Assembly: GCF_003319115.1 (NCBI RefSeq)
Contig: NZ_QOHF01000018.1
Location: forward strand, 42,410-106,409
Source: Geodermatophilus sp. TF02-6
Lineage (GTDB): Bacteria; Actinomycetota; Actinomycetes; Mycobacteriales; Geodermatophilaceae
Direction of reading: 5' to 3'
Length of the DNA stretch: 64,000 nucleotides
Position numbers and translations under genes: made by a program. The notes beneath the pieces are model-generated. The model saw only the letters and a program-made list of their open reading frames with translations. It did no database searches and was not told the origin of the DNA. Below, piece after piece: positions 30,232 to 50,837 of the stretch (position 1 is its first letter; every line of letters begins with the position of its first letter).

Positions 30232-30333
30232 GATCTCTCCTCCGGTTCGCGCCCGATCCGGCACGACCATGGGTGGTGGGTTCTGCGACGACGGTCGATC
30301 CCCAGTCGTTGGGGACGCACGTTCCCGTCTGTG

Positions 30334-32248: not shown

Positions 32249-32288
32249 GCGATGCCTTCGGAGGAGACGGACGGATGGGGGTGGGGGA

Positions 32289-32732: not shown

Positions 32733-32739
32733 GGTCGGC

Positions 32740-33672: not shown

Positions 33673-34272
33673 TCACACCGTCGCGACGTCCAAGTTGCGC
33701 AGAGTCCGGTCGCAGACCGCCCGCATGCGGTCGACGGTCATGCTCCTGGAGCGCAGCAGCACCTGCAGGGCCAGCCCGTCGATCATGCCGATCAAGGCGT
33801 TGGCGGCGAGTACCGGGTCCTCCTCCCGGAACAGGCCGCTGTCCTGACCGTCACGGAGGATGCCGGCGACGATCCGCCGCCACTCGCCGTAGACCTGCTC
33901 GTTCATCTCCTGCAGATCCGGGTCGTGGAGAGCTTCGACCCAGAGTTCGGCCCAGACGTGCCAGGCGCGGACGGTGACGTCGTCGACCGGCAGGTACGAC
34001 TCGACGAAGGCGCGCAGGCGCTCGCGTGGATCAGGGTGCTCGTCGAGCAGTGGCCGTCGGCGATCGAGAGACCGCGCGAAGTTCCACTCGAAGGCGGCCC
34101 GCATCAGTTCGGTCTTGGTGTCGAAGTAGTAGTGGACGGTTCCGGTGCTGGTGCCGGCGCGCTTGGCCACGTCGGCCACCCGGAGCGACTTGAAGCCGAT
34201 CTCCGACACGACCTCGCAGGCGGCCGACAGGATCTGCTCCCGCCGCTCGGCCTCCACGCTGGGCCTGGCCAT
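33673..34272 (-). CDS. TetR-family regulator, BetI-like
   Basis: A 199-aa TetR protein. The N-terminal HTH is REQILSAACEVVSEIGFKSL, then VADVAKRAGTSTGTVHYYFD; the C-terminal domain resembles BetI (RAWHVWAELWVEALHDPDL). It is divergent from an 11-gene amino-acid-type catabolic operon, and two TGAC-N6-GTCA palindromes sit in the shared 195-bp promoter region. It is most probably the local repressor, relieved by a substrate or CoA-ester intermediate; the ligand is unknown. Confidence 0.88.
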   Translation of the reverse strand: MARPSVEAERREQILSAACEVVSEIGFKSLRVADVAKRAGTSTGTVHYYFDTKTELMRAAFEWNFARSLDRRRPLLDEHPDPRERLRAFVESYLPVDDVTVRAWHVWAELWVEALHDPDLQEMNEQVYGEWRRIVAGILRDGQDSGLFREEDPVLAANALIGMIDGLALQVLLRSRSMTVDRMRAVCDRTLRNLDVATV

Positions 34273-34309
34273 GCACCCCTCCGCGCCTCGGTGTCGCGCC
34301 TGTCCTGTC

Positions 34310-34323
34310 TGACCGATCAGTCA
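34310..34323. promoter_or_regulatory. Probable TetR operator 1
   Basis: TGACCGATCAGTCA, a 14-bp palindrome with a GATC centre and one mismatched pair, 38 bases upstream of the regulator's ATG. Its outer arms TGAC...GTCA are shared with the copy at 34438-34451. Confidence 0.5.
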
Positions 34324-34437
34324 AGTTACGGCACGACCGGCCGCCTGCACAGCTCCTCCGGGGGATTTTCTCGCGTTGGCAGCCGCCACTTGACAACGGA
34401 TGGTGATACGCGCCACGCTCACCGCCTCGTTCATAAC

Positions 34438-34451
34438 TGACGCGTCCGTCA
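34438..34451. promoter_or_regulatory. Probable TetR operator 2
   Basis: TGACGCGTCCGTCA, arms TGAC/GTCA as in the copy at 34310. It lies 16 bases before the GTG of the binding-protein gene, a position where binding would block transcription of the operon. Confidence 0.5.
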
Positions 34452-34467
34452 AACATCGGAGGGCATC

Positions 34468-35349
34468 GTGCCGACGCTCAACAAGGGGCTCCTGGCCTCC
34501 CTGACCGCCCTGTCCGTCGCTCTGGTCACCGGTTGCTCCGGCGGTTCCACCGGCGACGAGGCCAGTGCCGACGGTGGCGGGTACGGCGAGTGCGAGGTCT
34601 ACGGCGAGGCGGGCTCCATCTCCCTGGAGCCCGTGACCGACGGCGTCCTCACGGTGCAGACGACCCTCCCGTCGCCCGGGTGGTGGAAGGGCGAGACGCC
34701 GGACAGCATCGTCGGCGGCTACGAGTACTGCCTGGCGGCCAACATCGCGCACCGCGCCGGCCTGGACGCGGTGGAGGTCGAGAACGTCTCCTTCGACGCG
34801 CTCGTCGCCGGCCAGACCCAGGACTTCGACATCGCGATGGCGCAGATCTCCGTGACGCCGGAACGCGAGAAGGTGGTCACCTTCTCGGCGCCGTACTTCG
34901 ACTCGAACCTCGGCGTCCTCGCCCCGGCGGACGCCGACGTCACCGAGGACGACATCCGCGAGCGGACCGTCGGCGTCCAGCTCGGGACGACCTCGGTGGC
35001 CTGGGCGCAGGACCAGCTGAAGCCGAACACCGAGCCGCAGCTGTTCCAGGACACGACCTCGATGGTGACCGCGGTCAGCTCCGGCGTCGTCGACGTGGCC
35101 GTCCAGGACACCGCGATCATGCTTGGCTTCGCCAAGAACTCCGGCGGCACGCTGAAGGTCGTCGGCCAGTTCGAGTCCGGGGAGAAGTACGCGGCCATCT
35201 ACCCCAAGGACTCCACGAGCGGCGAGACGATGAACCAGGCCATCGACGCCATGCGCCAGGACGGCACGCTCGACGAGCTCTCGGCCACGTGGCTCGGTCC
35301 CGAGCTCGGCGGCGACCCGGCCACGGTCCCGGTGTGGTCCCTCCGGTGA
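34468..35349 (+). CDS. Amino-acid ABC transporter substrate-binding lipoprotein
   Basis: A 293-aa family-3 solute-binding protein anchored in the membrane by a lipid. The signal peptide ends in the lipobox VTGC with the lipidated Cys23. The mature part shows FDIAMAQISVTPEREKVVTF and FSAPYFDSNLGVL, the polar amino-acid binding-protein hallmark, and DVAVQDTAIMLGF near the hinge. It is the first gene of the operon, GTG start 34468 after CGGAGGGC. The downstream DDAH-like gene suggests a ligand such as arginine, a methylarginine or citrulline; this is inference. Confidence 0.88.
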   Translation: MPTLNKGLLASLTALSVALVTGCSGGSTGDEASADGGGYGECEVYGEAGSISLEPVTDGVLTVQTTLPSPGWWKGETPDSIVGGYEYCLAANIAHRAGLDAVEVENVSFDALVAGQTQDFDIAMAQISVTPEREKVVTFSAPYFDSNLGVLAPADADVTEDDIRERTVGVQLGTTSVAWAQDQLKPNTEPQLFQDTTSMVTAVSSGVVDVAVQDTAIMLGFAKNSGGTLKVVGQFESGEKYAAIYPKDSTSGETMNQAIDAMRQDGTLDELSATWLGPELGGDPATVPVWSLR

Positions 35350-36455
35350 GCGCTCCCGTGACCAGTCGCACGCGAACCGCTGCGGAGGTCTCGGCGACGC
35401 CGACGCCTCCGCAGCCCGTTCTCCCCACGGCGGCCCTCGCACTCCTGATCGGAGTGCTCTGCGCACTGGCGGCCGCCCTCGCGCTGCGGTCGCTGCACTC
35501 GATGCTGGGGAACCCCCCGGCAGCGGTGGACGCGGGCCTCGTCGCCCTGGGCGCCGTCGCCCTGCTCCCGCTCGTCCCGGCCGGACGCGCCTTCGGTTCC
35601 GCCCGGAGCCGTTCGCGGCTGCTGGCCGAGGGCCGGCTCGCCGGCGCGCGCCACGAGGCGGCCAGCGGTCGGGAGCACGCGCACACCGCGATGGGGTACG
35701 CCCTGGCCGTCCTCCTCTGCGCGGCGCTCGTCTGGTTCGCCACGGCCAACGACGGCGCGATCTCGACGACGTTCCTGCGCTGGGAGTTCCTGCAGTCCAG
35801 CTTCGCCAACGTGCTGAAGGCGTTCTGGATCAACGTCGAGGTGGCCGTCGGCGCCCAGGTGCTGGTGCTCGTCGTCGGTCTGCTCGTCGCGGTGATGCGG
35901 CTGCTGCCCGGCCGCGCCGGGCGTCCGCTGCGCTGGCTGGCGATCGCCTACGTGGACACCTTCCGCGCCATCCCGAGCATCATCGTGCTCTACCTCGTCG
36001 GTTTCGGCCTGAAGCTGGCGCAGGTACCGCTGGTCAAGGACCTGTCGCCGGTCTGGCTGGCGATCATCGCGCTGACGCTGACCTACTCCAGCTACGTGGC
36101 CGAGGTCTACCGCGCCGGCATCGAGTCGATCCACCCCAGTCAGTGGGCGGCGTCGCGGTCCCTCGGGCTGTCCTACGGCATGACGCTGCGCACCGTGATC
36201 GTCCCCCAGGCGGTCCGGCGCATCGTCCCGCCGCTGCTCAACGACTTCATCGGGCTGCAGAAGGACACCGCACTGATCGGCGTCATGGGGGTGACCGACG
36301 CGTTCACGCAGGCCCGGCTCACCGCCTCCAACGTCTTCAACCTCACGCCGGTCATCGTGGTCGCCGTCCTGTTCGTGATCATCACGATCCCGCAGGCGCG
36401 CTACGTCGACCGGCTCCTCGGCAAGCAGCAGAGCCGGACCGGACGGACGACATGA
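35346..36455 (+). CDS. Amino-acid ABC transporter permease
   Basis: A 369-aa permease starting at a GTG that overlaps the binding-protein stop. The HisM-type core has FANVLKAFWINVEVAVGAQV, YVDTFRAIPSIIVLYLVGFG, and the EAA loop AASRSLGLSYGMTLRTVIVP. It is longer than usual (220-250 aa) because about 110 residues with two or three extra membrane segments precede the core. A single permease gene suggests a homodimeric channel. Confidence 0.88.
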   Translation: MSAPVTSRTRTAAEVSATPTPPQPVLPTAALALLIGVLCALAAALALRSLHSMLGNPPAAVDAGLVALGAVALLPLVPAGRAFGSARSRSRLLAEGRLAGARHEAASGREHAHTAMGYALAVLLCAALVWFATANDGAISTTFLRWEFLQSSFANVLKAFWINVEVAVGAQVLVLVVGLLVAVMRLLPGRAGRPLRWLAIAYVDTFRAIPSIIVLYLVGFGLKLAQVPLVKDLSPVWLAIIALTLTYSSYVAEVYRAGIESIHPSQWAASRSLGLSYGMTLRTVIVPQAVRRIVPPLLNDFIGLQKDTALIGVMGVTDAFTQARLTASNVFNLTPVIVVAVLFVIITIPQARYVDRLLGKQQSRTGRTT

Positions 36456-37195
36456 CATTTCTCCAGATCAACGACGTGCACAAGCGCTACGGCGAGCACG
36501 ACGTCCTGCGCGGCGTGAGCCTGGACGTGGCCAAGCACGAGGTGGTCTGCCTCATCGGCGCCTCGGGTTCGGGCAAGTCCACCCTGCTGCGCTGCATCAA
36601 CGCCCTCGAGCCGATCCAGCAGGGCGAGATCCGCGTCGACGGCGACGTCGTCAGCGGCCAGGGGGTGGACGTCAACCGGTTGCGCCGCAACGTGGGCATG
36701 GTGTTCCAGTCCTACAACCTGTTCCCGCACATGACCGTGCTCCGGAACGTCACCCTCGCCCCGGTCAAGATCGGGGGGAAGTCCACGGCGGCGGCCGAGG
36801 AGCAGGGGCTCGCCCTGCTGGACCGGGTCGGCATGAAGGACAAGGCGGGCGCCTACCCCGACGCCCTGTCCGGCGGCCAGCAACAGCGCGTCGCCATCGT
36901 CCGCGCTCTGGCCTCGAGCCCCCAGGTGCTGCTCCTCGACGAGATCACCGCCGCGCTGGACCCCGAGCTCGTGGGCGACGTCCTCGCGATCGTGCGCGAG
37001 CTGGCCCAGGACGGGCTGACGATGCTGCTCGCCACCCACGAGATGGGCTTCGCCCGGGAGGTCGCCTCGCAGGTGTGCTTCCTGCACCAGGGGCGGATCC
37101 TCGAGCGCGGCACCCCGGCGCAGATCTTCGAGGACCCGCAGGAGGACCGGACCCGCCAGTTCCTGAGCCGGGTCCTCGTCGCGGGGAGGTTGTGA
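36452..37195 (+). CDS. Amino-acid ABC transporter ATP-binding protein
   Basis: A 247-aa ATPase of the polar amino-acid importer class. Walker A is GASGSGKST, the signature is LSGGQQQR, and Walker B reads LLLDEITAALD (DEIT in place of the commoner DEPT, a variant seen in ectoine-type importers). ATGATG-type overlap with the permease stop indicates coupling. It completes a one-SBP, one-permease, one-ATPase uptake system. Confidence 0.93.
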   Translation: MTFLQINDVHKRYGEHDVLRGVSLDVAKHEVVCLIGASGSGKSTLLRCINALEPIQQGEIRVDGDVVSGQGVDVNRLRRNVGMVFQSYNLFPHMTVLRNVTLAPVKIGGKSTAAAEEQGLALLDRVGMKDKAGAYPDALSGGQQQRVAIVRALASSPQVLLLDEITAALDPELVGDVLAIVRELAQDGLTMLLATHEMGFAREVASQVCFLHQGRILERGTPAQIFEDPQEDRTRQFLSRVLVAGRL

Positions 37196-37196
37196 C

Positions 37197-38063
37197 GTGC
37201 CCGAGCAGCCAGCAGGGATCGCGCTGGTGCGGCGACCCACCGAGGACCTCGCCGACGGCATCGTCACGCACGTCGAGCGGGTGCCCGTGGACGTGGCGCT
37301 CGCCGCGGAGCAGCACGCCGGCTACCGCGCGGTGCTGGCCGCCGCCGGCTGGGAGGTCCGGGAGGTGGACCCGGCGCCCGGCTGCCCGGACGCTCCCTTC
37401 GTCGAGGACTCGGTCGTGGTGGTGGACGGGACGGCGGTGCTGACCCGCAGCGGCGCCCGGGCGCGCCGGGCGGAGCTGCCCGGCACCGAGAAGGCGGTGC
37501 GGGACCTCGGTCTCGAGGTCGTGCGCATCGACGGGGACGGCACGCTCGACGGCGGTGACGTCCTGCAGGTCGGTGCGACGGTGTACGTGGGCCGCGGCGG
37601 GCGCACCAACGCCGAGGGGATCCGGCAGCTGCGCGGGCACCTGGCCCCGCTCGGCCGCACGGTGGTCCCGGTCGGGCTCCGGGCGGTCCTGCACCTGAAG
37701 TCGGCCGTGACGGCGCTTCCCGACGGCACGTTCCTGGCGCTGCCGGAGCTGCTCGAACCGGGTTCCTTCCCGGTTGCCCGACCGGTTGTCGAGGAGCCGG
37801 GTTGCCACGTCGTCCCCCTGGGCGGGGACGAGGTGCTCATCAGCGCCTCGGCACCACGGACGGCGGACCGGCTGGCGGACCTGGGGTTCACGCCCCGGGT
37901 GGTCGACATCGGCGAGTTCGAGAAGCTCGAGGGCTGCGTCACCTGCCTCAGCGTTCTGGTCCGCCGCCCGGCGCCCGCTGCACAGGCCTTTCCCCGTCCC
38001 ACGCCGCCGGCGGCGGCGATCGACGCCCGCTCCGCACACCCGTCATCAGAGGAGACCCCGTGA
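37197..38063 (+). CDS. Dimethylargininase/amidinotransferase-family hydrolase
   Basis: A 288-aa DDAH-type guanidine-modifying enzyme. The family hydrolyses methylated arginines to citrulline and methylamines, or acts on related guanidines. Visible motifs: FVEDSVVVVDGTAVLTR, LDGGDVLQVGATVYVG, the catalytic His in VLHLKSAVTALPDGTF, and the C-terminal nucleophile region KLEGCVTCLSVLV. The GTG start at 37197 is one base past the ATPase stop region. A 40-residue Pro/Ala tail is unusual. Coupling to an amino-acid importer supports a role on imported arginine derivatives. Confidence 0.85.
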   Translation: MPEQPAGIALVRRPTEDLADGIVTHVERVPVDVALAAEQHAGYRAVLAAAGWEVREVDPAPGCPDAPFVEDSVVVVDGTAVLTRSGARARRAELPGTEKAVRDLGLEVVRIDGDGTLDGGDVLQVGATVYVGRGGRTNAEGIRQLRGHLAPLGRTVVPVGLRAVLHLKSAVTALPDGTFLALPELLEPGSFPVARPVVEEPGCHVVPLGGDEVLISASAPRTADRLADLGFTPRVVDIGEFEKLEGCVTCLSVLVRRPAPAAQAFPRPTPPAAAIDARSAHPSSEETP

Positions 38064-39238
38064 CCCGCGCCATCCGAGACGGCATCGAGCTCACCGAGGA
38101 GCAGCGCGAGTTCGTCGCGTTGGCCCGCGACTTCGCCGAGCGCGAGATCCGACCCCGGTCCCGTTCGGTCGACGAGGCCGACACCGAGTCGCCGCTGGAC
38201 CTGTGGGCGAAGGCCGCCCGGGTGGGCCTGAGCTCGTACATGCTCCCCGCGGAGTACGGCGGCGGCGGCGTGACGGACCTGGTCACGCAGTGCCTGGTGC
38301 AGGAGGAGCTCTGCTACGGCGACGTCGGCATCGGCAACTTCCTGACCTCCAGCGCGTTCTTCGCCGAGCCGGTGCTGGCCCTCGGCACGGAGGAGCAGAA
38401 GAAGCGCTGGATCGGCCCGCTCACCGGGGAGACCCCGCCGGTCACCGCCGTGGCGGTCACCGAGCCGGGTGTCGGCTCCGACTCGGCGAGCCTGCAGACC
38501 CGGGCGGTGCGCGACGGCGACCACTACCTCCTGACCGGCCAGAAGACCTGGATCTCCAACGCGCCGTACGCGCAGTGGATCGTGGTCTTCGCCACGGTCG
38601 ACCCCTCCCTGCGTTCCCGTGGCGTCACCGCCTTCCTGGTGGAGCGGGACATGCCGGGGGTCACGATCGGTGCGCCGATGAAGAAGCTCGGCCAGCGCGG
38701 GATCGTCAACGCCGAGGTGTTCCTCGAGGACGTCCGCGTGCCGGTGGACCACCGGCTCGGCGAGGAGGGGCAGGGCTTCTACGGCCTGATGCGCACGTTC
38801 GACGGCTCGCGGATCCTCATCGGCGCCGGCGCGACCGGCCTGTCGCGGGCCGCCCTGGACGCCACGGTGCGGTACGCGAGCGAGCGGACGCAGTTCGGCA
38901 AGCCGATCATCGAGCACCAGGCCGTCGCCTTCCGGCTCGCCGACATGGCCGCCCGCACCGACGTCTCCCACCTCGTCACGATGCGGGCCGCCCGCCTCTT
39001 CGACGCCGGGATCCCCTGCACCGCCGAGTCCGCGATCGCGAAGCTCACCGCGAGCGAGAACACCACCTGGGTCACCAACGCCGCGCTGCAGACCCACGGC
39101 GGCTGGGGGTACTCCCGCGAGTACTTCCCGGAGAAGTGGCTGCGCGACGCCAAGCTGGAGGAGCTCGAGGAGGGCACCTCCGACATCCAGCGGCTGATCA
39201 TCTCCCGCGCTCTGTTCGCGCGCCGAGCGGGCAGCTGA
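38060..39238 (+). CDS. Acyl-CoA dehydrogenase
   Basis: A 392-aa flavoprotein oxidising an acyl-CoA to the 2-enoyl-CoA. It contains VTEPGVGSDSASLQTRAVRD, the FAD/substrate region TGQKTWISNAPYAQWIVV, and the C-terminal ALQTHGGWGYSREYFPEKW with EEGTSDIQRLIISR, where the catalytic Glu of this family resides. GTG 38060 overlaps the DDAH stop (GTGA). Chain length cannot be read from the sequence; placement implies oxidation of a short acyl-CoA made by the next enzyme. Confidence 0.92.
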   Translation: MTRAIRDGIELTEEQREFVALARDFAEREIRPRSRSVDEADTESPLDLWAKAARVGLSSYMLPAEYGGGGVTDLVTQCLVQEELCYGDVGIGNFLTSSAFFAEPVLALGTEEQKKRWIGPLTGETPPVTAVAVTEPGVGSDSASLQTRAVRDGDHYLLTGQKTWISNAPYAQWIVVFATVDPSLRSRGVTAFLVERDMPGVTIGAPMKKLGQRGIVNAEVFLEDVRVPVDHRLGEEGQGFYGLMRTFDGSRILIGAGATGLSRAALDATVRYASERTQFGKPIIEHQAVAFRLADMAARTDVSHLVTMRAARLFDAGIPCTAESAIAKLTASENTTWVTNAALQTHGGWGYSREYFPEKWLRDAKLEELEEGTSDIQRLIISRALFARRAGS

Positions 39239-41334
39239 TGGGCGGCGACCTCGGCACGTTCTCCGACCCGCGGTCGGTGGCGATCGTCGGCGCCTCGGCC
39301 GACCCGGCCAAGTGGGGCTACTGGCTCGCCCGGGGAGCGCTGCGCGGCGCCCACCGGCGGTCGGTGCACCTGGTGAACGCCGGGTCCGCGGTGATCGACG
39401 GGGTGGCGTCCGTCCCGTCGCTGCGGGCCCTGCCCGAGCCGCCGGAGCTGGTCGTGCTCTGCGCCCCGGCCGCCACGGTCCCGGCCGTCGTCGACGAGGC
39501 GCTCGAGCTGGGGGCGAAGGGCTTCCTCGGGATCACCGCGGGCATCGACGCCGCCCACGACGACCCCGGGCTGGAGCGGCGGATGGCGGCCGAGATCCGG
39601 GCCGCGGGTGCCCGGATCGTCGGCCCCAACTGCCTGGGCATCTACGACGCCGCCTCCGAGCTCGAGCTCGCCTGGGGCAGTTTCCAGCCGGGGAGCCTCG
39701 CCGTCGTCTCCCAGTCCGGTCAGCTGGGGCTGGAGATGGCGGGACTCGCCGCGCACGCCGGGCTCGGCATCTCCCGGTTCGTGTCGATCGGCAACCAGGT
39801 CGACGTCACCGCGGTCGACGTCCTCGACGACCTGGTCGACTCCGAGGCGACGAAGGCGGTCGTGCTCTACCTGGAGGGCTTCGCCGACGGCCGGGCGCTG
39901 CTGGCCGCGCTGGCCCGCCTGCGGGACGCCGGGAAGCCGGTGGTGGTGCTCACCGTCGGGGCGAGCGAGGCGAGCCGGGTCGCCGCCCGGTCGCACACCG
40001 GGGCGCTCACCGCCGCCACCGACGTGGTCGCCGCCGCCTGCCGGGCGGTCGGCGCGGTGCTCGTCGACACGCCGGCCCAGGCCGTCGACCTGGCGCACCT
40101 GCTGCTCGGCAGCCCGCTCCCGGCCGGCCGCCGGATCGCCGTGGTGAGCGACAGCGGGGGACAGGGGGCGATCGCCGCCGACACGCTGGCGCGGGAGGGG
40201 CTGCGCGTGCCGCGGCTGGCCCCGCAGACCTCGGCGGGTCTGGCCGCGCTGCTGCCCGCTTCCGCCGGGGTCGCCAACCCCGTCGACCTCGCCGGCGCCG
40301 GCGAGCGGGACCTCGACACCTACGCCCGGGTGGTGGAGGCGCTGCTGCGCAGCGGGGACATCGACGCCGTCGTCCTGTCCGGCTACTTCGGCTGCTACGG
40401 CGACGACACCCCCGAGCTGGTGGAGCGGGAACTCGAGGTGGTCAAGACGCTGGCCGACGCCGTGCGCGTGCACGGCCGCCCGGTGGTGGTGCACTCGATG
40501 AGCTCCGACTCCGACGCCGTCCGGTCGATGCGCGCGCACGCCGTGCCGACGTTGCACACCGTCGACGCCGTCGCCCGCTCCCTCGCGCTCGCCGCCGACC
40601 TGGCCGAGCAGCCGGGCGGTCTGGTCCCCGAGGTGGCGCCCTCCTCGGCCGGGACCGGCGATCCGCTCCCGTACCTCGAGGGCCGGGCGCGGATCGCCGC
40701 TTCCGGCGTGCGCTATCCCGCCGCCGAGGCGGTGCACACCGCCGAGGACGTGCGCCGGGCGAGCGGCCGGCTCACCGCGCCGTACGTGCTCAAGGCCGGG
40801 TGGCTCGAGCACAAGACCGACGTCGGCGGGGTCGCGGTCGCGCTCGCCGACGCCGACGCCGCCGTCGCCGCCTTCCGCGGCATGCTCGCCCGGCTGGGCG
40901 AGGGCGCCTACGTCCTCGAGGAGATGGACGGCCGGCGCGACACCGTGGAGTTGATCGTCGGCGCCCACCGGGACCCGTCCTTCGGGCCGGTGGTCCTGGT
41001 CGGCATCGGCGGGGTGCAGGCCGAGGTGTACCGCGACGTCCGGATCGGCCTCGCCCCGGTCACCCAGGAGCAGGGCCGCCGGATGGTGGAGTCGCTGCGC
41101 GGCTACCCCGTGCTGACCGGCTGGCGGGGACGGCCCCCGGTCGACGTGGACGCGGCCGCCTCGGTCGTGGCCGCCGTCTCGCGGCTGCTCGCGGAGCAGC
41201 CCGACGTCGCCGAGTGCGAGATCAACCCGCTGCGGGTCGGCCCGGACGCGGCCGTCGCGGTCGACGCCCTGGTGGTCGCCGCTCCCGATGACGCACAGAT
41301 CCCCGCCCGCACGCGAACAGGAGCACAGCCGTGA
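39238..41334 (+). CDS. Acyl-CoA synthetase, ADP/NDP-forming (acetate-CoA ligase family)
   Basis: A 698-aa fused ACD-type enzyme: CoA-binding domain (RSVAIVGASADPAKWGYWL), succinyl-CoA-synthetase-like domains with GPNCLGIYD and SQSGQLGLEM, the phospho-His region AARSHTGALTAATDV, and a C-terminal ATP-grasp domain (YVLKAGWLEHKTDVGGVAVA, ECEINPLRVGPD). It activates a carboxylate to its CoA thioester at the cost of ATP to ADP. ATG 39238 shares a base with the dehydrogenase stop. The acid it activates is probably the product of the operon's aldehyde dehydrogenase. Confidence 0.88.
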   Translation: MGGDLGTFSDPRSVAIVGASADPAKWGYWLARGALRGAHRRSVHLVNAGSAVIDGVASVPSLRALPEPPELVVLCAPAATVPAVVDEALELGAKGFLGITAGIDAAHDDPGLERRMAAEIRAAGARIVGPNCLGIYDAASELELAWGSFQPGSLAVVSQSGQLGLEMAGLAAHAGLGISRFVSIGNQVDVTAVDVLDDLVDSEATKAVVLYLEGFADGRALLAALARLRDAGKPVVVLTVGASEASRVAARSHTGALTAATDVVAAACRAVGAVLVDTPAQAVDLAHLLLGSPLPAGRRIAVVSDSGGQGAIAADTLAREGLRVPRLAPQTSAGLAALLPASAGVANPVDLAGAGERDLDTYARVVEALLRSGDIDAVVLSGYFGCYGDDTPELVERELEVVKTLADAVRVHGRPVVVHSMSSDSDAVRSMRAHAVPTLHTVDAVARSLALAADLAEQPGGLVPEVAPSSAGTGDPLPYLEGRARIAASGVRYPAAEAVHTAEDVRRASGRLTAPYVLKAGWLEHKTDVGGVAVALADADAAVAAFRGMLARLGEGAYVLEEMDGRRDTVELIVGAHRDPSFGPVVLVGIGGVQAEVYRDVRIGLAPVTQEQGRRMVESLRGYPVLTGWRGRPPVDVDAAASVVAAVSRLLAEQPDVAECEINPLRVGPDAAVAVDALVVAAPDDAQIPARTRTGAQP

Positions 41335-42188
41335 TCGAACCGTCCCCGCTCGCCGAGTTCGCCGGGAGGGTGGCCCTGGTCACCGGAGGCGGCTCCGGCA
41401 TCGGTCGGGCGATCGCCCTCCGGTACGCCGCCGGCGGCGGCGACGTGGTGGTGCTCGGCCGCCGTCCCGAGCCGCTGGAGGAGACCGCGCACCTGGCGGA
41501 GGAGCTCGGCGCGCGGGCGGCCGTCGTGAGCTGCGACGTCCGGGACCCGGACGCCGTGACGGCCGCGGTGGACGGCGTGGTGGGGGAGCACGGCCGCATC
41601 GACGCCCTGGTCAACAACGCCGCGGGCAACTTCGTGTGCCCCGCCGAGGACCTGTCCCCGAACGGCTGGCGAGCCGTCCTCGACATCGTGCTCAACGGCA
41701 CCTTCTACTGCACCCGCGCCGCGGCCCGGCACATGCTGCCCGCCGGGCGGGGCGCCATCCTGAACGTCATCGCCAGCTATGCGTGGCACGGTCACCCCGG
41801 CACGGTGCACAGCGCCGCGGCCAAGGGCGGCATCCTCGCGATGACCCGCACGCTGGCCGCCGAGTGGGGCGGCCGCGGAGTGCGGGTGAACTGCATCTCC
41901 CCCGGACCGACCGAGACCGAGGGGGCCGGCGCGGCCCTGTGGCCGACCGACGCGGACCGGGCGCGGGTGCTCGGCAGCGTGCCGGCGGGCCGGTTCACCA
42001 CGCCCGAGGAGGTCGCCGAGAGCGCGGCGTTCCTGCTCGACGACGCCCGCGCCGGGTACGTCACCGGCGACGTCCTGTCCGTGGACGGCGGCCAGTGGCT
42101 CGGCAAGGCCGTCTACGCCGACTCCAGCAGGGCCGACTCCAGCAGGGCCGACTCCAGCAGGGCCGACTCCAGCCGGAGCCGGTCGTGA
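41331..42188 (+). CDS. SDR oxidoreductase, 2,4-dienoyl-CoA-reductase-like
   Basis: A 285-aa short-chain dehydrogenase. NAD(P) motif VALVTGGGSGIGRAIAL, then ALVNNAAGNFVCPAEDLS. At the normal YxxxK site it reads SAAAK (VHSAAAKGGILAMTRTLA), lacking the Tyr; dienoyl-CoA reductases show the same pattern, so it is more likely of that type than a 3-oxoacyl reductase. The C terminus carries a run of the pentapeptide ADSSR, encoded by a 15-bp tandem repeat, absent from normal family members. GTG 41331 overlaps the synthetase stop. Confidence 0.85.
   Translation: MIEPSPLAEFAGRVALVTGGGSGIGRAIALRYAAGGGDVVVLGRRPEPLEETAHLAEELGARAAVVSCDVRDPDAVTAAVDGVVGEHGRIDALVNNAAGNFVCPAEDLSPNGWRAVLDIVLNGTFYCTRAAARHMLPAGRGAILNVIASYAWHGHPGTVHSAAAKGGILAMTRTLAAEWGGRGVRVNCISPGPTETEGAGAALWPTDADRARVLGSVPAGRFTTPEEVAESAAFLLDDARAGYVTGDVLSVDGGQWLGKAVYADSSRADSSRADSSRADSSRSRS
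42117..42176 (+). repeat. 15-bp tandem repeat, four copies, coding
   Basis: Three identical units GCCGACTCCAGCAGG (42117-42131, 42132-42146, 42147-42161) and a fourth with one change (42162-42176). They encode ADSSR repeats at the end of the SDR protein, just before the overlapping start of the ThDP enzyme. Confidence 0.95.
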
Positions 42189-43801
42189 CCCCGATGACCG
42201 GCGGCCAGGCACTGGTCGCCGCGCTCGACGCCCACGGGGTCGACACGGTCTTCGGCATCCCCGGCACGCACAACCTGGAGATCTACCGGCACCTGGCCGA
42301 GCAGGGCATCCGGCACGTCAGCCCGCGCCACGAGCAGGGCGCCGGGTACGCGGCCGACGGGTACGCGCGCACCACCGGCCGGCCGGGCGTCGCCGTGGTG
42401 ACCAGCGGGCCGGCCCTGCTCAACACCGCGGCCGCCGTCGGCCAGGCGTGGTCGGACTCGGTGCCGGTGCTCGTCGTCTCGCCGGGGTTGCCGCTGCGCC
42501 ATCCGGGTCTGGGCAACGGTCTGCTGCACGAGTCCCGCGACCAGGGCGGCGCGCTGGCCGCGATCGCCGCGGCCAGCATCCGCGCGACGAGCGTCCCCGA
42601 GATCCCGGTCGCGGTCGCGCAGGCCTTCGCGATCATGACCGGTGGCCGCCCGCGGCCGGTGCACCTGGAGGTGCCGCTCGACGTCCTGGCCGAGACCGGC
42701 GACGTCGTGCTGTCCTCCCCGGTCGCCGCCGCGGCGCCGGTCGCCGCCCCGCTCGACGTCGCGGCCGCGGCGGCCCGCCTGACCGGGGCCTCCCGTCCGG
42801 TCCTGCTGGTCGGCGGCGGGGCTCGCGGCGCCGCGGAGGAGGTGCGCCGCGTCGCCGAACGGCTCGGCGCGCCGGTGGTCACCACCGCCAACGGCAAGGG
42901 CGTGCTCCCCGAGGACCACCCGCTGTCGCTCGGTGCGGGGGTGCACCTCCCCGCCGTCCGGGAGCTGGTGGACGACGCCGACGTCGTCCTCGCCGTCGGC
43001 ACGGAACTGGCCCCCTCCGACCTGTGGTACGGCCCCCTGCCGCTCGCCGACCGGCTGGTGCGGGTCGACGTCGACCCGGTCGGTGCCGTGACCAACGCGG
43101 TGCCCGGCATCGCGCTCGTGGGCGACGCGGCCCGTACCCTGCGGGCCCTGCTCGACCTGCTGCCCAGCACCGACGCGGGGGAGCCCGCGGCCCGGAGGGC
43201 CGAGTCGTGGCGGGACCGCAAGGCCAAGGACGCCGAGGCCGAGGGTGCGGAGTGGTTGGAGATCGTGGCGGCCCTCGCCGAGGCGCTGCCGCGCGATGCG
43301 GTCGTCGCCGGCGACAGCGCGATGGTCTGCTACTACGGCGCGATGACGAACCTGCCAGTCCACCGGCCCGGCGCGTTCCTCTACCCGACCGGGTTCGGCA
43401 CCCTCGGCTACGGGTTGCCCGCCGCGGTGGGCGCCAAGGTCGGCGATCCGGGGGCGCCGGTCCTCGCCCTGCTGGGCGACGGCGGGGTGATGTTCACGAT
43501 CGCCGAGCTGGCCACCGCCGCCGACCTCGGCCTGCCGCTGCCGATCGTGATCGTCGACAACTCCGGCTACGGCGAGATCCGCAACGAGATGCTCGACCGC
43601 GAGGACCCGGTGCACGCGGTGACGTTCGCCTCGCCCGACTTCGCCGCGCTCGGCCGGGCCATGGGTTGCTCCGGCGTGACCCTGCACGGGCCCGCCGGGC
43701 TCGCGGGCGCCGTCCGGGAGGCCCTCGCCGCCGACCGGGCGACCGTGATCCACCTCCGCCACTCCGACCCCGCCGCGCGCCTGCAAGGAGACGCCCGATG
43801 A
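42185..43801 (+). CDS. ThDP-dependent 2-oxoacid decarboxylase, AruI-like
   Basis: A 538-aa acetolactate-synthase-fold enzyme. It most resembles 5-guanidino-2-oxopentanoate decarboxylase: VDTVFGIPGTHNLEIYRHLA and IRHVSPRHEQGAGYAADGYA, with the catalytic Glu50. The ThDP motif is LLGDGGVMFTIAELATAADL with DNSGYGEIRNEM. It would decarboxylate a 2-oxo acid to an aldehyde. Neighbouring genes for an amino-acid dehydrogenase and an aldehyde dehydrogenase give the steps before and after. GTG 42185 overlaps the SDR stop; ATG 42194 is an alternative start. Confidence 0.82.
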   Translation: MTPMTGGQALVAALDAHGVDTVFGIPGTHNLEIYRHLAEQGIRHVSPRHEQGAGYAADGYARTTGRPGVAVVTSGPALLNTAAAVGQAWSDSVPVLVVSPGLPLRHPGLGNGLLHESRDQGGALAAIAAASIRATSVPEIPVAVAQAFAIMTGGRPRPVHLEVPLDVLAETGDVVLSSPVAAAAPVAAPLDVAAAAARLTGASRPVLLVGGGARGAAEEVRRVAERLGAPVVTTANGKGVLPEDHPLSLGAGVHLPAVRELVDDADVVLAVGTELAPSDLWYGPLPLADRLVRVDVDPVGAVTNAVPGIALVGDAARTLRALLDLLPSTDAGEPAARRAESWRDRKAKDAEAEGAEWLEIVAALAEALPRDAVVAGDSAMVCYYGAMTNLPVHRPGAFLYPTGFGTLGYGLPAAVGAKVGDPGAPVLALLGDGGVMFTIAELATAADLGLPLPIVIVDNSGYGEIRNEMLDREDPVHAVTFASPDFAALGRAMGCSGVTLHGPAGLAGAVREALAADRATVIHLRHSDPAARLQGDAR

Positions 43802-44976
43802 GCTCGTCGTTCCTCGAGACCACCTGGACCGACCCGGTCACCGGGCGCAAGGGGTACGTCGTCCTCGACACCCTGGTCCGCGGCCTGGCCAGCGGCGGGC
43901 TGCGGCTGCGCGAGGGCTGCACCCTGGAGGAGGTGCGCGGCCTGGCGCAGGGCATGACCCGCAAGGAGGCGCTGGTCTACGACCCGGCCGACACCTACCT
44001 CCCGCTGGGCGGCGGCAAGGGCGGCATCGACATCGATCCCGCCGACCCGCGGGCGGTCGACGTCCTCCGCCGCTTCCTCGCCGCCGTCCTGCCCGTGGTC
44101 AAGGAGCAGTGGAACACCGGCGAGGACTTCGGCCTGCGCCAGGAGACGCTGGACAAGGTCGCCGCCGAGCTCGGGCTCGCCTCCACCGTCGAGGCGGTGT
44201 TCGCGACCCTGCCGGACGCGCCCGCCGCACGCGACCGGCTGGCGCAGGCGTTCACCGTGGACGTCGACGGGATCTCCCTGGGCGACCTCGTCGGCGGGTA
44301 CGGGGTGGCGCGCGCGGGCCTCACCTACGCCGAGCGGCTCGGGCTCGCCCCGGCCGCGACGACCGCGGTCGTGCAGGGGTTCGGCTCCATCGGCGGTGCC
44401 GCGGCCCGCTACCTCGCCCGCGCCGGCGTGACGGTGATCGCCGTCGCCGACCGGGACGGCCTGATCCGCAACGACGAGGGGCTCGACGTCGAGGCGCTGC
44501 TCGCCGCGCGCAACGGCCTCGGCGTCATCGACCGGTCCGCGCTCCGCCCCGGGGACTCCACGGCGCCCACCGAGCAGTGGCTCGACGTGCCCTGCGACCT
44601 GCTCGTGCCGGCGGCCATGTCGTACGTGGTCGCGGCCGCCGACGTGCTCCGCATCGACGCCCGGGTCGTGGTCGAGGGCGCGAACATGCCGACGCTGCCC
44701 GAGGCCGAGGCGGCGCTGACCGCCCGCGGCATCCCGGTGGTCCCCGACTTCCTCGCCAACGTGATGACCAACGCCTGGTGGTGGTGGGTGGTGTTCGGCG
44801 ACATCGCCCCGACCGCCGAGTCGTCGTTCGCGAAGATCGACACGGTCATGCGTCGGCTGGTCGAGACGGTGGCGGCCGACGCCGAGGCGTGCGGCCGGAC
44901 GCTGCGCGAGAGCGCGCTGGCGCTGGCGGCGCGCAACGCCGAGGTGGTGCAGGCGCGCGTCGGTGTGACGCGGTGA
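43798..44976 (+). CDS. Glu/Leu/Phe/Val dehydrogenase family protein
   Basis: A 392-aa amino-acid dehydrogenase performing NAD(P)-dependent oxidative deamination. The catalytic Lys motif is LPLGGGKGGIDIDP, the Rossmann motif TAVVQGFGSIGGAAARYLAR, followed by VVEGANMPTLPEAEAAL and VVPDFLANVMTNAWWWWVVF. ATG 43798 overlaps the decarboxylase stop. It is diverged from standard glutamate dehydrogenase, so a side chain such as arginine or citrulline is conceivable but unproven. Confidence 0.88.
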   Translation: MSSSFLETTWTDPVTGRKGYVVLDTLVRGLASGGLRLREGCTLEEVRGLAQGMTRKEALVYDPADTYLPLGGGKGGIDIDPADPRAVDVLRRFLAAVLPVVKEQWNTGEDFGLRQETLDKVAAELGLASTVEAVFATLPDAPAARDRLAQAFTVDVDGISLGDLVGGYGVARAGLTYAERLGLAPAATTAVVQGFGSIGGAAARYLARAGVTVIAVADRDGLIRNDEGLDVEALLAARNGLGVIDRSALRPGDSTAPTEQWLDVPCDLLVPAAMSYVVAAADVLRIDARVVVEGANMPTLPEAEAALTARGIPVVPDFLANVMTNAWWWWVVFGDIAPTAESSFAKIDTVMRRLVETVAADAEACGRTLRESALALAARNAEVVQARVGVTR

Positions 44977-46403
44977 CCCGCGAGGAGTGGCGCCGGGACG
45001 CGGTCTTCGTGGCCGGCCGCTGGCAGCCGACCTACGAGGGCCGCACCCTCGGCGTGGAGAACCCGGCCACCGAGGAGATCGTGGGCAGCTCCGCCGAGGC
45101 GGGACGCGGGGAGGTGGACGACGCCGTCGCCGCGGCCGCCGCGGCCTTCCCGGGCTGGGCCGGTCTGCCGGTCGGCGACCGGGGAACGGTCCTGCGCCGG
45201 TGGCTCGGCGAGCTGCGGTCCCGGCGGGAGCTGCTGGTCGAGACGACGATCGCGGAGGTCGGCGCGCCGAGGAAGGTGGCGGAGGAGTCGCACGTCGACA
45301 CCGGGCTAGCCGTCCTCGAGGGGTACCTGGCCGCGGCCGGCAGCGTGCCGTGGGAGGAGCGGGTCGCGAACTCGCTGGTCCTGCGGGAGCCGATCGGCGT
45401 CGTCGGCTGCATCACCCCGTGGAACTACCCGCTGTACCAGGTGCTCGCCAAGGTGGGCGGTGCCCTGGTGGCCGGCTGCACGGTGGTGCTCAAGCCGGCG
45501 GAGCTCACCCCGCTCTCGGCATACCTGCTGGCCGACGCCGCCGCGGCGGCAGGCCTGCCGGCGGGCGTGTTCAACCTGGTGCCGGGGGCCGGCCGGGTGG
45601 TGGGCGAGGCGCTCGTCGCCCATCCCGGCGTGGACATGGTCTCCTTCACCGGCTCCACCGGCGTCGGGGCCCGGGTGTCCACGCTGGCCGCGCCGACGGT
45701 GAAGCGGGTGGCGCTGGAGCTGGGCGGCAAGTCCGCCTCGGTCGTGCTGCCCGACGCCGACCTGCCGGCCGCGGTGGAGGGCACGGTGGCCGCGGCGATG
45801 CTCAACAGCGGGCAGACGTGCAGCGCGTGGAGCCGGCTGCTGGTCCCCGCCGACCGTCTCGACGAGGCGGTGGCCTCGGCCGCCGCCGCGGCCGAGCGGC
45901 TGGTCGTCGGCGACCCGGAGGCGACCGACACCCTGATCGGTCCGGTGGTCTCGGCCGCCCAGCGCGAGACGGTCCTCGGGTTCGTGCGCCGGGCCGTCGA
46001 GCAGGGCGCGGTCGTGGCCGCCGGCGGTCCGGACCGACCGGTCGGGCTGGACCGGGGCCACTACGTCGCCCCCACCGTCGTCACGGCGGTCCGGCCGGAC
46101 GCCGAGATCGTCCGGGAGGAGGTCTTCGGGCCGGTGCTCACCGTGCAGGCGTACCGCGACGAGGACGACGGCCTGGCGATGGCCAACGCTCCCGACTACG
46201 GGCTCTCCGGCGCCGTGTGGTCCGGTTCGGAGGAGGCGGCGCTGGCGTTCGCCCGGGGGATGCGCACCGGGCAGGTGGACGTCAACGGTGCCGCGTTCAA
46301 CCCGACGGCGCCCTTCGGCGGCTACCGACGGTCGGGCAACGGTCGCGAGCTCGGGAAGTGGGGGATCGAGGAGTTCCTCGAGACCAAATCGGTGCAGCGG
46401 TGA
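44973..46403 (+). CDS. Aldehyde dehydrogenase
   Basis: A 476-aa NAD(P)-dependent aldehyde dehydrogenase. The catalytic Cys is in [15 protein letters not shown], the Glu in [13 protein letters not shown], the cofactor motif is [11 protein letters not shown], and [20 protein letters not shown] forms the N-terminal pocket. GTG 44973 overlaps the previous stop. It should oxidise the aldehyde formed by the upstream decarboxylase to the carboxylic acid for CoA activation. Confidence 0.93.
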
Positions 46404-47416
46404 CCGCTCCGGCGGTCGACGTCGCTGCGCCCGCTGCTCGTCGTCGTCTCGTCTCCGCGGTTCTCGCACTGGTCGCCATCACCGCCGTCTGGGGATCGAC
46501 CTTCCCGTTGAGCAAGGACCTGCTGACCCGGATGTCGGTGACCGACTACCTGGCGCTCCGGTTCCTGACCGCGGCGGTCGTGATGGCGCTCGCCAATCCG
46601 CGGGCGCTGGTGCGGCGGTTGGACCGCCGGGTGCTCGTGGTCGGCGCCGGCCTCGGGTTCTGCTACTTCCTCGGCCAGGTGCTGCAGTTCTTCGGCCTCC
46701 AGCACACCGCTGCGACCGTGTCGGCGTTCGTGGTCTCGATGTACGTGGTGTTCACGCCGCTGTTGAGCGCGGCGTTGCTGCGTACACGTCCCGATCGGGT
46801 CACGGCCGTCGCCACGGTGGCGGCGACGGCGGGTGTGGCCACGATGTCGCTGCGGGGCTGGGCGCTGGGGTTCGGCGAGCTGCTGACCCTGCTCGCCGCC
46901 GTCCTGTACGCCGGGCACATCCTGGCGTTGGGCCGGTGGTCGACGGGCCGGACGGCGTATGCCTTGACGTTCGTGCAGCTGCTCACCATGGGCGTCTGCT
47001 TGCTGGGCTGGGCATCGCTCGACGGTCTGCAGGCTCCGGGACGGGCGGACCTGCTGACCTTCCTGTACCTGGCGGTGGTCGCCGGGGGCGTCGCCATGCT
47101 CGTCCAGACCTGGGCGCAGGCACACGTCGCTGCCACCCAGGTCGCAGTCCTCATGGTGCTCGAGCCGGTGTGGGCCGCGTTCTTCGGTGTCGCGCTCTGG
47201 CAGGAGGCACTGGACCTCCGCACGGCCATCGGTGGCGCGCTCGTGCTGAGCGCGATGGTGGTGGTGGCGACCCGCCCCAGCGGAACGCGGGCAGCCAACG
47301 CCGGCGCCGCGGAGGCGGCGGCCGTCGGAGCCGTACCGAGAGCGGAGGACCGGAACGGACGAACACGATGTGCTGGTCATCGGCGGCGGGGTCGCCGGAG
47401 CCTCGATCGGCTGTGA
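46400..47416 (+). CDS. DMT-family (EamA) transporter
   Basis: A 338-aa ten-helix drug/metabolite transporter starting at GTG 46400, overlapping the aldehyde dehydrogenase stop. EamA hallmarks are ITAVWGSTFPLSKDLLTRMS and the second-half VLMVLEPVWAAFFGVALWQE. It is the last gene of the operon and may export a waste product such as an amine or urea-like compound. The last 40 residues are basic and overlap, in another frame, a FAD-motif fragment, so the natural stop may have been lost. Confidence 0.85.
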   Translation: MTAPAVDVAAPAARRRLVSAVLALVAITAVWGSTFPLSKDLLTRMSVTDYLALRFLTAAVVMALANPRALVRRLDRRVLVVGAGLGFCYFLGQVLQFFGLQHTAATVSAFVVSMYVVFTPLLSAALLRTRPDRVTAVATVAATAGVATMSLRGWALGFGELLTLLAAVLYAGHILALGRWSTGRTAYALTFVQLLTMGVCLLGWASLDGLQAPGRADLLTFLYLAVVAGGVAMLVQTWAQAHVAATQVAVLMVLEPVWAAFFGVALWQEALDLRTAIGGALVLSAMVVVATRPSGTRAANAGAAEAAAVGAVPRAEDRNGRTRCAGHRRRGRRSLDRL

Positions 47417-47843: not shown

Positions 47844-48572
47844 ATGAGCGTCAATCCGCTGATCAAGGACCGGAAGAGCCCCATCCGACCGGCTGGCCAG
47901 AGCAAGGGCTTCTGGCTGGCCACCCTCGAGCAGGGAGCGAACCTGCTGCAGACCGCCGGACCGCTCAACCACTTCGACGTCTACGTCGTCGGTTTCCACC
48001 CTGCCAAGGGCGAGCCGGACATGCAGATGGAGGCCCACCACTTCTGCCGGGTGGTCAACGACGACCTGCTGCAGTGCGTGCTCTTCGACGGCAACACCAA
48101 GGACGCCAACCTCATCGGCATCGAGTACATCGTCTCCGGCCGGCTGTTCGACCGGTTGCCGGAGGAGGAGCGGCCCTACTGGCACCCGCACAACTTCGAG
48201 CTGCTGTCCGGTCAGCTCGTCGCCCCGGGCCTGCCGGAGGTGGCGGAGAAGGCGTTCTTCAAGCTGCTGATGAACTCCTACGGCAAGACCTGGCACACCT
48301 GGCACACCGGCACGCACGCCGAGCCCGGGATGGATCTCCCCTACGGGGATCCGAAGCTGATGTGGTCGTTCAACCGGGACGGCGAGGGTCGGGAGGATCT
48401 GCTCCGTGACCGGAACGAGGCGATGGGCCTGGACGTCGACGCCAAGCGGGCCGACCGGCAGTCCCTCCTCCCTCTGGCCCGGCCGCAACACGGGGTGGAC
48501 GAGATGAAGGACGACTTCCCCGGCAGCACACCCATCCCCGGGGTCGTGGACGTACACGCCGTCCGCCCCTGA
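47844..48572 (+). CDS. DUF1264 / oil-body-associated-protein-like protein
   Basis: A 242-aa protein of the OBAP family (DUF1264), also found in plants and fungi. Typical strings: LNHFDVYVVGFHPAKGEPDM, MEAHHFCRVVNDDLLQCVLF, FDGNTKDANLIGIEYIVSGR and WHPHNFELLSGQLVAPGLPE, with TWHTWHTGTH later. No signal peptide or membrane helix is evident. ATG 47844 follows GAGAGGAGCC. Bacterial function is unknown. Confidence 0.85.
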   Translation: MSVNPLIKDRKSPIRPAGQSKGFWLATLEQGANLLQTAGPLNHFDVYVVGFHPAKGEPDMQMEAHHFCRVVNDDLLQCVLFDGNTKDANLIGIEYIVSGRLFDRLPEEERPYWHPHNFELLSGQLVAPGLPEVAEKAFFKLLMNSYGKTWHTWHTGTHAEPGMDLPYGDPKLMWSFNRDGEGREDLLRDRNEAMGLDVDAKRADRQSLLPLARPQHGVDEMKDDFPGSTPIPGVVDVHAVRP

Positions 48573-50811: not shown

Positions 50812-50837
50812 CGAGCCGGGCCGGAGGAGGGGTGCTG

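Follow-up and report, generated by a model that had tools for sequence, protein, structure and literature searches.

An operon of Geodermatophilus sp. TF02-6 that may degrade methylarginines through citrulline and acyl-CoA intermediates

The window is a stretch of 64,000 nucleotides from Geodermatophilus sp. TF02-6. It carries 11 plus-strand genes lying back to back (34468-47416), and with a divergent tetR gene the locus spans 33673-47416 (Table 1). Families were assigned with Pfam and NCBIfam profiles, the ATPase with NCBIfam alone, and the named frames were backed by GC content by codon position. Four-base overlaps were found at the junctions permease/ATPase, DDAH/acyl-CoA dehydrogenase (ACAD), ligase/SDR, SDR/ThDP enzyme, ThDP enzyme/ELFV dehydrogenase, ELFV dehydrogenase/aldehyde dehydrogenase (ALDH) and ALDH/EamA. 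The binding protein/permease junction is another 4-base overlap if the permease starts at GTG 35346, and an 8-base gap if it starts at 35358. The ACAD and ligase genes have 1 base in common, and a 1-base gap lies between ATPase and DDAH. The 11 overlapping genes are predicted to form one operon. An earlier note on this DNA had reported eleven consecutive, mostly overlapping plus-strand genes with a divergent TetR, which was confirmed; its near-universal 4-base overlaps held at 7 or 8 of the 10 junctions, depending on the permease start.

Table 1. Genes and operator-like sites of the locus (window positions)
Feature	Positions	Strand	Basis
TetR-family regulator, divergent	33673..34272	-	ORF; NCBIfam TetR models all under cut-off
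Possible second operator near tetR start, CTGTCTGACCGATCAGTCAA, weak	34305..34324	.	Second-best site, 8 mismatches to palindromic consensus
Conserved operator-like site, ATAACTGACGCGTCCGTCAA	34433..34452	.	15 bases 5' of first start codon; motif comparison across operons
Solute-binding lipoprotein, SBP_bac_3	34468..35349	+	PF00497, 75 bits
ABC permease	35346..36455 (start 35346 or 35358)	+	PF00528 (BPD_transp_1); TIGR01726 above cut-off
ABC ATPase, polar amino acid type	36452..37195	+	Best models EhuA, GlnQ, under cut-off
DDAH-type hydrolase, operon-bound subfamily	37197..38063	+	NF045660; catalytic and carboxylate-side residues conserved
Acyl-CoA dehydrogenase (ACAD)	38060..39238	+	PF00441, PF02771, PF02770; EGT-motif Glu present
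ADP-forming acyl-CoA ligase, alpha and beta domains fused	39238..41334	+	PF13549, PF13607, PF13380 (ATP-grasp_5/CoA-binding/Succ_CoA_lig)
SDR, 2,4-dienoyl-CoA reductase layout (Y, then S-x-x-x-K)	41331..42188	+	NF005811 under cut-off; motif
ThDP-dependent 2-oxo acid decarboxylase, AruI family	42185..43801	+	NF005712 above cut-off
ELFV-type amino-acid dehydrogenase, gene 9	43798..44976	+	PF00208, PF02812; Ser32 at glutamate-binding Lys position
Aldehyde dehydrogenase (ALDH)	44973..46403	+	PF00171, 508 bits
EamA/DMT transporter, last gene of operon	46400..47416	+	PF00892

Related operons from Geodermatophilaceae, Nocardioidaceae, Streptosporangiaceae and Pseudonocardiaceae were compared. The set held 28 import-cassette operons including the window's, all picked for having their own importer. 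Repeats of one genome (L077-L081, L097, L163, L166, L168, L169) were omitted from the count, as were L083-L086, L090, L091, L096, L100, L173-L176, L073-L076 and Streptomyces-like and distant loci. The search for co-occurrence of the gene families, proposed in the earlier note, found all 11 genes in window order in one other operon, from a Nocardioidaceae genome (L162). The arrangement is beyond chance, because it recurs whole or in part in 27 operons besides the window's. ACAD and the ADP-forming ligase were each present in 27/28 operons and the ThDP enzyme in 26/28. An ELFV amino-acid dehydrogenase was present in 24/28, and a 2-hydroxyacid dehydrogenase in exactly the remaining 4; both would make a 2-oxo acid. 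The full gene set of the earlier note was not general: ALDH occurred in only 11/28 copies and EamA in only 14/28 (15 at the count thresholds, but the one at L177 belongs to an adjoining operon). The core stood without DDAH in 19 of the 28 operons, and without any importer in more distant families (L034, L040).

An operator-like motif was found 5' of the first gene in 28/28 operons, with 1 to 5 mismatches. It had been derived without 10 of them, and the held-out set was positive (10/10). At up to 3 mismatches, the window's genome contained a single site. Of 24 genomes scanned, 21 had a match, and the scan returned 29 rows: 26 at the related operon, including one that is a single site read again on the opposite strand, and 3 away from it (G275, G413, G414). 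At this stringency, no second motif-bearing locus supplying the absent ALDH was found in the 24 genomes. The motif was absent from the Humibacillus, Micrococcales and N. mangrovicus copies (0/3). The score of the possible second site was often reached by shuffled sequence (shuffle mean 9.5 mismatches); perfect TGACTGG-CCAGTCA palindromes were present at about the equivalent place in L068, L069 and L071. A TetR homologue adjoins 25/28 operons, and homologues beside L087 and L088 were also visible in the longer stretches L166 and L163; none was seen in the L095 stretch. The adjacent TetR repressor likely controls the operon.

The DDAH-type hydrolase scored 374.1 bits on NF045660 (curated cut-off 340) and had no Pfam match at 1e-5. 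On NF045659, which from its name we take to be the Rv2323c clade, it scored 69 bits (cut-off 300). Six of the nine operon copies were aligned with the P. aeruginosa enzyme. All six retained C249, H162, D66, E65 and D60, together with the carboxylate-side arginines R85 and R132; the catalytic Cys, His, acidic and substrate-binding roles are presumably those of the P. aeruginosa residues. All six also had E114 replaced by Asp and L18 by Ile. Asp at position 114 was shared by two other aligned Geodermatophilaceae DDAHs.

A DDAH census covered 453 genomes, 112 of Geodermatophilaceae (the window's included) and 341 of Nocardioidaceae. DDAHs at least 79% identical were found in 6/112 and 3/341 genomes, respectively, and all nine were inside the related operon. 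The other 96 matches (2 in Geodermatophilaceae, 94 in Nocardioidaceae) were 51-61% identical. Five of these ordinary DDAHs were located. The two in Geodermatophilaceae sit among unrelated genes; in G466, G506 and G548 the DDAH gene is either on a different contig from the ThDP gene or separated from it by hundreds of kilobases. The view that DDAH adjoins the other genes by chance was rejected, the subfamily of at least 79% identity occurring, in the two families searched, only in the related operon.

G548 contains a stand-alone TetR-ABC-DDAH-dehydrogenase module. The neighbouring operon encodes the ThDP enzyme, ALDH, ligase and ACAD; its dehydrogenase is of the 2-hydroxyacid type. The module and the operon each carry the motif. 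This genome gave one ThDP match at 1e-160, the basis for proposing that the two share one ThDP enzyme, and weaker ThDP paralogues are possible. In the module, DDAH and the amino-acid dehydrogenase together make up a single entry unit, so citrulline is the likeliest substrate of the ELFV dehydrogenase.

Gene 9 has the ELFV fold and the catalytic lysines K56 and K74. Ser32, invariant in 16/16 rows, takes the place of the Lys with which glutamate dehydrogenase (GDH) grips the side-chain carboxylate of its substrate; the roles of the three positions are taken to be those in GDH. GDH models reached 129 bits at best (cut-off 620). Databases name kin of gene 9 glutamate dehydrogenase or Glu/Leu/Phe/Val dehydrogenase; the former name was rejected for gene 9, as its key Lys is Ser. 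For the structure model, the best Foldseek matches were GDHs with TM about 0.6, its N-terminal domain having low confidence (pLDDT <50 at residues 1-20, 28-54, 71-77 and 106-113; weak in the substrate domain). According to the available text of a paper from 2023, neither an oxidase nor a dehydrogenase specific for L-citrulline had been reported, and one was engineered there for diagnostics (PMC10694123). By that text, a citrulline dehydrogenase would be without precedent.

The ThDP enzyme scored 547.1 bits on NF005712 (5-guanidino-2-oxopentanoate decarboxylase, AruI; cut-off 500). AruI homology by itself leaves the ThDP substrate unfixed. A paralogue about 50% identical has as neighbours a ureohydrolase of the arginase family and an ABC transporter of polar amino-acid type (L073), and an aminotransferase lies beside more distant homologues (L173, L174, L175). 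By profile search, neither an aminotransferase (arginine:pyruvate transaminase) nor a guanidinobutyrase was found among the 11 operon genes. The two arginase-family matches of the window's genome are both on other contigs.

Two exchangeable import cassettes precede the core, an amino-acid ABC transporter (n=10) and a GABA-type ABC transporter (n=18). DDAH was present in 9/10 of the former and 0/18 of the latter (Fisher 1.4e-6, kinship among operons ignored). Amino-acid ABC copies without DDAH were N. albidus L082 (counted) and N. mangrovicus L100 (left out; including it gives 9/11). The earlier note had placed guanidine hydrolysis (or direct use) in the pathway; such hydrolysis is an exchangeable entry and not part of the core, because the core is also found lacking DDAH and behind the GABA-type importer. 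The GABA-type binding proteins of the 18 operons retain W9, W202, R205, D228 and Y264 of the GABA site. They also retain the Asp in contact with the amino group of GABA (PMC12999171, available text), which suggests that the ligand in these 18 operons has a cationic end group and not a neutral ureido group. Position 13 was Asp in 16/16 rows with an ELFV dehydrogenase (14 distinct genomes) and Ala in 4/4 of the 2-hydroxyacid type. As a proof this difference was dropped: 8/268 alignment columns separate the two groups, a pocket hit (eight positions) by chance has a probability of 0.22, and the difference may be one event because all four 2-hydroxyacid types are on one side of one branch.

These binding proteins bear on a possible but doubtful alternative, with arginine or ornithine as a cationic substrate of the core and DDAH as a side entry or a variant akin to dihydrolases. 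Together the dehydrogenase and ThDP enzyme would then give 4-guanidino- or 4-aminobutyraldehyde, followed by the acid and the CoA ester. The GABA-site residues, with Asp13 accompanying the ELFV dehydrogenase as if to bind the alpha-amino group of a molecule like GABA or 5-aminovalerate, fit this alternative; against it stand the chance of 0.22 for a pocket hit and that possible single event. In the available text of PMC7268258, the AruI homologue IlvB1 of S. meliloti prefers 5-amino-2-oxopentanoate, also in its favor. PA4985, a binder of GABA and 5-aminovalerate, is encoded near AruSR, the controller of the arginine transaminase pathway; however, the same partly available source found no PA4985-AruS interaction and cautions that adjacent genes may be unconnected (PMC11113362). 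Known DDAHs yield citrulline, the window DDAH is far from arginine dihydrolase (22 vs 121 bits), and DDAH is paired with the dehydrogenase in the stand-alone module, all of which argue against the cationic substrate.

The SDR scored 296 bits on NF005811, under its cut-off of 318. Its Tyr precedes the Lys by 15 residues, and the usual Tyr position is taken by Ser. This dienoyl-CoA reductase layout, YAWHGHPGTVHSAAAK, was present in 14/14 SDR-bearing operons and is, we assume, the pattern of human DECR1. Simple arginine schemes give no role for an SDR of this type, and the SDR and CoA steps are foreign to known arginine routes. The layout would suit degradation of an unrelated amino acid (branched-chain, methionine or unsaturated) with DDAH recruited for another purpose, as would the 19 DDAH-free operons, the importer-free core of distant families and the Humibacillus importer, closest to BcaP-type permeases (under cut-off). 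We consider such a core improbable: the operon DDAH subfamily was found nowhere else in the two families searched, the ThDP enzyme is above the 2-ketoarginine decarboxylase cut-off, the L073 paralogue adjoins the ureohydrolase and polar amino-acid ABC, and the other exchangeable cassette carries a GABA-type importer. Detoxification or export of a guanidino compound, with EamA as exporter and the enzymes modifying the compound, is very unlikely. EamA closes the window operon and occurs in 14/28, but it is absent from half of the operons, and the window operon has its own ABC importer, as do the 27 others (chosen for having one).

The direct sequence evidence consists of gene content, gene order, the motif, the intact DDAH catalytic residues, cassette exchange and the stand-alone entry module; from it we infer all substrates, the regulation and the end products. 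On balance, we give roughly even credence to an operon that imports N-methylarginines (or arginine), converts them to citrulline by DDAH and oxidises citrulline via the 2-oxo acid to an acyl-CoA. The ABC importer would take up N-methylarginines or arginine, and DDAH would release citrulline and (di)methylamine from methylarginine. The ELFV dehydrogenase would convert citrulline to 5-ureido-2-oxopentanoate, from which the AruI-type ThDP enzyme would form 4-ureidobutyraldehyde. ALDH would oxidise this to 4-ureidobutyrate, the ADP-forming ligase would make 4-ureidobutyryl-CoA, and ACAD would give a 2-enoyl-CoA. Citrulline would thus be stripped stepwise, somewhat like a fatty acid. The arginine-type catabolism of the earlier note gained support from the DDAH and AruI scores above curated cut-offs, from the DDAH subfamily tied to this operon in the two families searched, and from the module that joins DDAH to the dehydrogenase. 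Its step order fits the gene anatomy but leaves the SDR layout unexplained.

Parts of this citrulline route resemble known systems. DDAH and methylarginine use are known from P. aeruginosa, whose ATA (AruHI) pathway leads from the amino acid to the 2-oxo acid, followed by AruI decarboxylation and aldehyde oxidation. The window operon is predicted to share the 2-oxo acid, the AruI-family ThDP decarboxylation and the aldehyde oxidation. Unlike ATA, it has no aminotransferase or guanidinobutyrase, and it has DDAH, an ELFV dehydrogenase, an ADP-forming CoA ligase and ACAD, with TetR in place of AruSR. ScyA/ScyB of scytonemin synthesis, which act on tryptophan and join two units, likewise pair an ELFV dehydrogenase with an (acetolactate-synthase-like) ThDP enzyme, but they have no transporter, DDAH or CoA steps. 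A further likeness to ATA is the GABA-type binding protein encoded near its regulator (PMC11113362, available text). The CATCH-N arginine transamination network of Sinorhizobium meliloti also uses IlvB1, and aldehyde dehydrogenases acting on 4-guanidinobutyraldehyde; in the available text of PMC7268258, it ends in GABA and succinate via a ureohydrolase and transaminases, and the CoA activation proposed for the window operon is not seen. The mycobacterial roc cluster also has a DDAH-family hydrolase, the DDAH-annotated Rv2323c, which serves arginine use; the accessible part of that paper describes a permease and an ornithine aminotransferase homologue, and no ThDP, ELFV dehydrogenase or CoA genes (PMC4569260). 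Rv2323c seems to belong to another clade than the window DDAH.

The earlier note knew of no described pathway with the full gene set, and none was found in the literature searched, which covered few subscription papers. The route is apparently undescribed so far. Methylarginines arise from eukaryotic protein turnover, and the literature searched describes little of the fate of DDAH-released citrulline in actinobacteria. More tentatively, gene 9 may be the first natural L-citrulline dehydrogenase, in a CoA-dependent breakdown of methylarginine and citrulline via 5-ureido-2-oxopentanoate and 4-ureidobutyryl-CoA, with plug-in cassettes (methylarginine with DDAH, basic amino acid, 2-hydroxy acid) feeding a common lower pathway governed by a single operator. 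The operon family offers 24 natural candidates for citrulline dehydrogenase, and the cassette swap ahead of one core allows substrate specificity to be tested by comparing operons.

Profile searches upheld the family assignments that the earlier note had made for the operon genes, and the eleven consecutive plus-strand genes and divergent TetR gene that it had described were present in the window. Neighboring genes overlapped by 4 bases at 7 of the 10 junctions (8 with the permease start at 35346). The DDAH scored 374 bits on NCBIfam NF045660 (cut-off 340), and the ThDP enzyme scored 547 bits on NF005712, 5-guanidino-2-oxopentanoate decarboxylase (cut-off 500). The genome (53 contigs, 4.73 Mb) was searched for a second DDAH at 1e-40 and gave no match. 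Two arginase-family ureohydrolase genes (L112 and L113) lie on contigs other than that of the window. Other features are listed in the table; the Fer2 and VanA_C pair resembles a Rieske oxygenase system.

Features of the window and of one distant gene cluster copy
Feature	Position	Strand	Remark
Aromatic amino acid lyase	28558-30270	-	PF00221, 539 bits
Fer2 ferredoxin-type protein and VanA_C domain piece	31253-33330	-	Upstream of tetR; adjoining frames
TetR gene	33673-34272	-	Divergent from operon
Copy of the shared upstream motif	34433-34452		
Eleven genes of operon	34468-47416	+	Open reading frames
C-terminus of SDR	42110-42188		ADSSR tandem repeat, four times
DUF1264 protein	47904-48572	+	Directly downstream of operon
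Chemotaxis-like protein, then protein with three CheW domains	48727-52346	+	First protein: four PAS boxes and methyl-accepting signalling part
S15-type hydrolase part fused to ABC ATPase part	57047-59920	+	Single open frame
Distant copy without importer (genome G061)	L034, 5603-13278		TetR-ACAD-SDR-ThDP-DH-ACS

The gene cluster of the window is a conserved unit. Class-wide, gene 9 (ELFV dehydrogenase) had matches in 28 of 296 genomes; family-wide, gene 8 (ThDP enzyme) had matches in 12 of 112, the window's own genome being included in both counts. Gene 8 also had matches in 16 of 341 Nocardioidaceae genomes, and a gene 9 scan of named genomes gave 25 loci. Some, not all, of the matches to either gene carried the operon. 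After repeats of one genome were taken out, 28 operons with an ABC import cassette were compared, two of them from genome G548. As judged by tblastn thresholds, the CoA ligase and the acyl-CoA dehydrogenase (ACAD) were each present in 27 operons, the ThDP enzyme in 26 (L093 has none, and L177 appears to share its neighbor's), the ELFV dehydrogenase in 24, the SDR in 14 and the ALDH in 11. In 4 operons a 2-hydroxyacid dehydrogenase took the place of the ELFV dehydrogenase. A TetR homologue accompanied 25 operons, and two more once longer stretches were read; none was seen at L095. The Nocardioidaceae genome containing L162 had all eleven genes in the same order as the window.

A 20-base site like ATAACTGACGCG(C/T)CAGTCAA was found 5' of the first import gene in all 18 operons used for its derivation. 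It also occurred, with 1 to 5 mismatches, in 10 of 10 further operons, for which some start sites in the comparison were tblastn estimates. None of 200 base shuffles equaled the real match in any of the 28 operons. At L170 and L095, the site was farther away or weak. A motif search of 24 genomes gave matches in 21, and 26 of the 29 matches were at this operon type; the G061 match sits between TetR and ACAD of the distant copy. No second site with up to 3 mismatches was found in the window's genome. Three copies of the cluster lacked the motif: those of Humibacillus and Micrococcales, both with another importer, and that of N. mangrovicus. We infer that TetR binds this motif. Because L162 and L082 (N. 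albidus) have an additional site immediately 5' of ACAD, the entry cassette and the core may be addressed separately.

A PotABCD-like transporter precedes ACAD in 18 of the 28 operons, and an amino-acid ABC transporter does so in 10, among them L177, which has no ACAD of its own. DDAH accompanied 9 of the 10 amino-acid ABC cassettes and none of the 18 PotABCD-like ones; the two amino-acid ABC loci without DDAH were L082 and L100 (N. mangrovicus, outside the count). Compared with solved structures, two PotABCD-type binding proteins resembled the GABA binders 4eq7 and Pf622. On a gene 9 tree of 21 labeled rows, built before extra Nocardioidaceae were added, the four cassette states require 6 changes, and the PotABCD label requires at least 3 from well supported branches alone. 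B. capsensis and B. mobilis, which are closely related, differ in cassette state. On the simplest interpretation, these cassettes supply a 2-oxo acid to one ThDP enzyme.

In the two families searched, Geodermatophilaceae and Nocardioidaceae, the operon's DDAH forms a separate subfamily. DDAHs at least 79% identical to it occurred in 6 of 112 and 3 of 341 genomes, respectively, and all nine lie inside this operon. The other matches (2 and 94, respectively) were 51-61% identical; the five of these 96 whose positions were determined all lie outside operons of this type. G548 has both DDAH kinds. Its TetR-SBP-permease-ATPase-DDAH-dehydrogenase entry module is a stand-alone unit, and the adjoining operon contains the ThDP enzyme, ALDH, ligase, ACAD, SDR and 2-hydroxyacid dehydrogenase; both bear the motif. 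The alignment showed that DDAH retained the known catalytic residues and those that hold the amino-acid end. The dehydrogenase has Ser32 instead of the Lys typical of glutamate dehydrogenases. The pairing of DDAH with a following amino-acid dehydrogenase most plausibly reflects consecutive steps with citrulline in between: DDAH would convert methylarginine to citrulline, which the dehydrogenase would then oxidize.

A serious rival is that the core handles arginine or ornithine, with DDAH as one entry among others, because of the GABA-type binding sites and the preference of a ThDP homologue. Of the eight residues that make up the GABA site of iGABASnFR2 (PMC12999171), the GABA-type binding proteins retain five (W9, W202, R205, D228 and Y264); they have Tyr at position 102, Leu at 100 and either Asp or Ala at 13. 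According to the same paper, D228 touches the GABA amino group, so the substrates of these operons probably have a cationic end. An S. meliloti ThDP homologue prefers the ornithine-derived 2-oxo acid, as stated in PMC7268258. All 16 rows (14 distinct genomes) that have the ELFV dehydrogenase carry Asp at position 13, and all 4 rows that have the 2-hydroxyacid dehydrogenase carry Ala there, as expected if Asp13 meets an alpha-amino group. However, eight of 268 alignment columns separate the two groups (chance pocket hit, 0.22), and the position-13 change may be a single event on the tree. Also counting against the citrulline reading are the two amino-acid ABC loci without DDAH and the SDR, whose active-site layout is that of dienoyl-CoA reductases, which no simple arginine scheme accounts for.

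ThDP-enzyme paralogues about 50% identical are present in the same family. At L073, one adjoins an arginase-family ureohydrolase and a polar amino-acid ABC transporter, as expected for a guanidinobutyrate route. The Nocardioidaceae loci L173, L174 and L175 have paralogues in ThDP-ALDH-aminotransferase clusters, with a glycine-betaine-type binding protein at L173 and L175; these clusters add another entry variant within that ThDP family.

The literature search, which covered its sources in part, did not turn up a description of an operon of this kind, any mention of 4-ureidobutyrate in the breakdown of citrulline, or a naturally occurring dehydrogenase for L-citrulline. According to PMC10694123, no oxidase or dehydrogenase specific for L-citrulline has been reported. 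We regard the operon as a variant within the 2-ketoarginine class of pathways. Its parts come from known families; what appears to be new is the way they are combined and the chemistry predicted for them.
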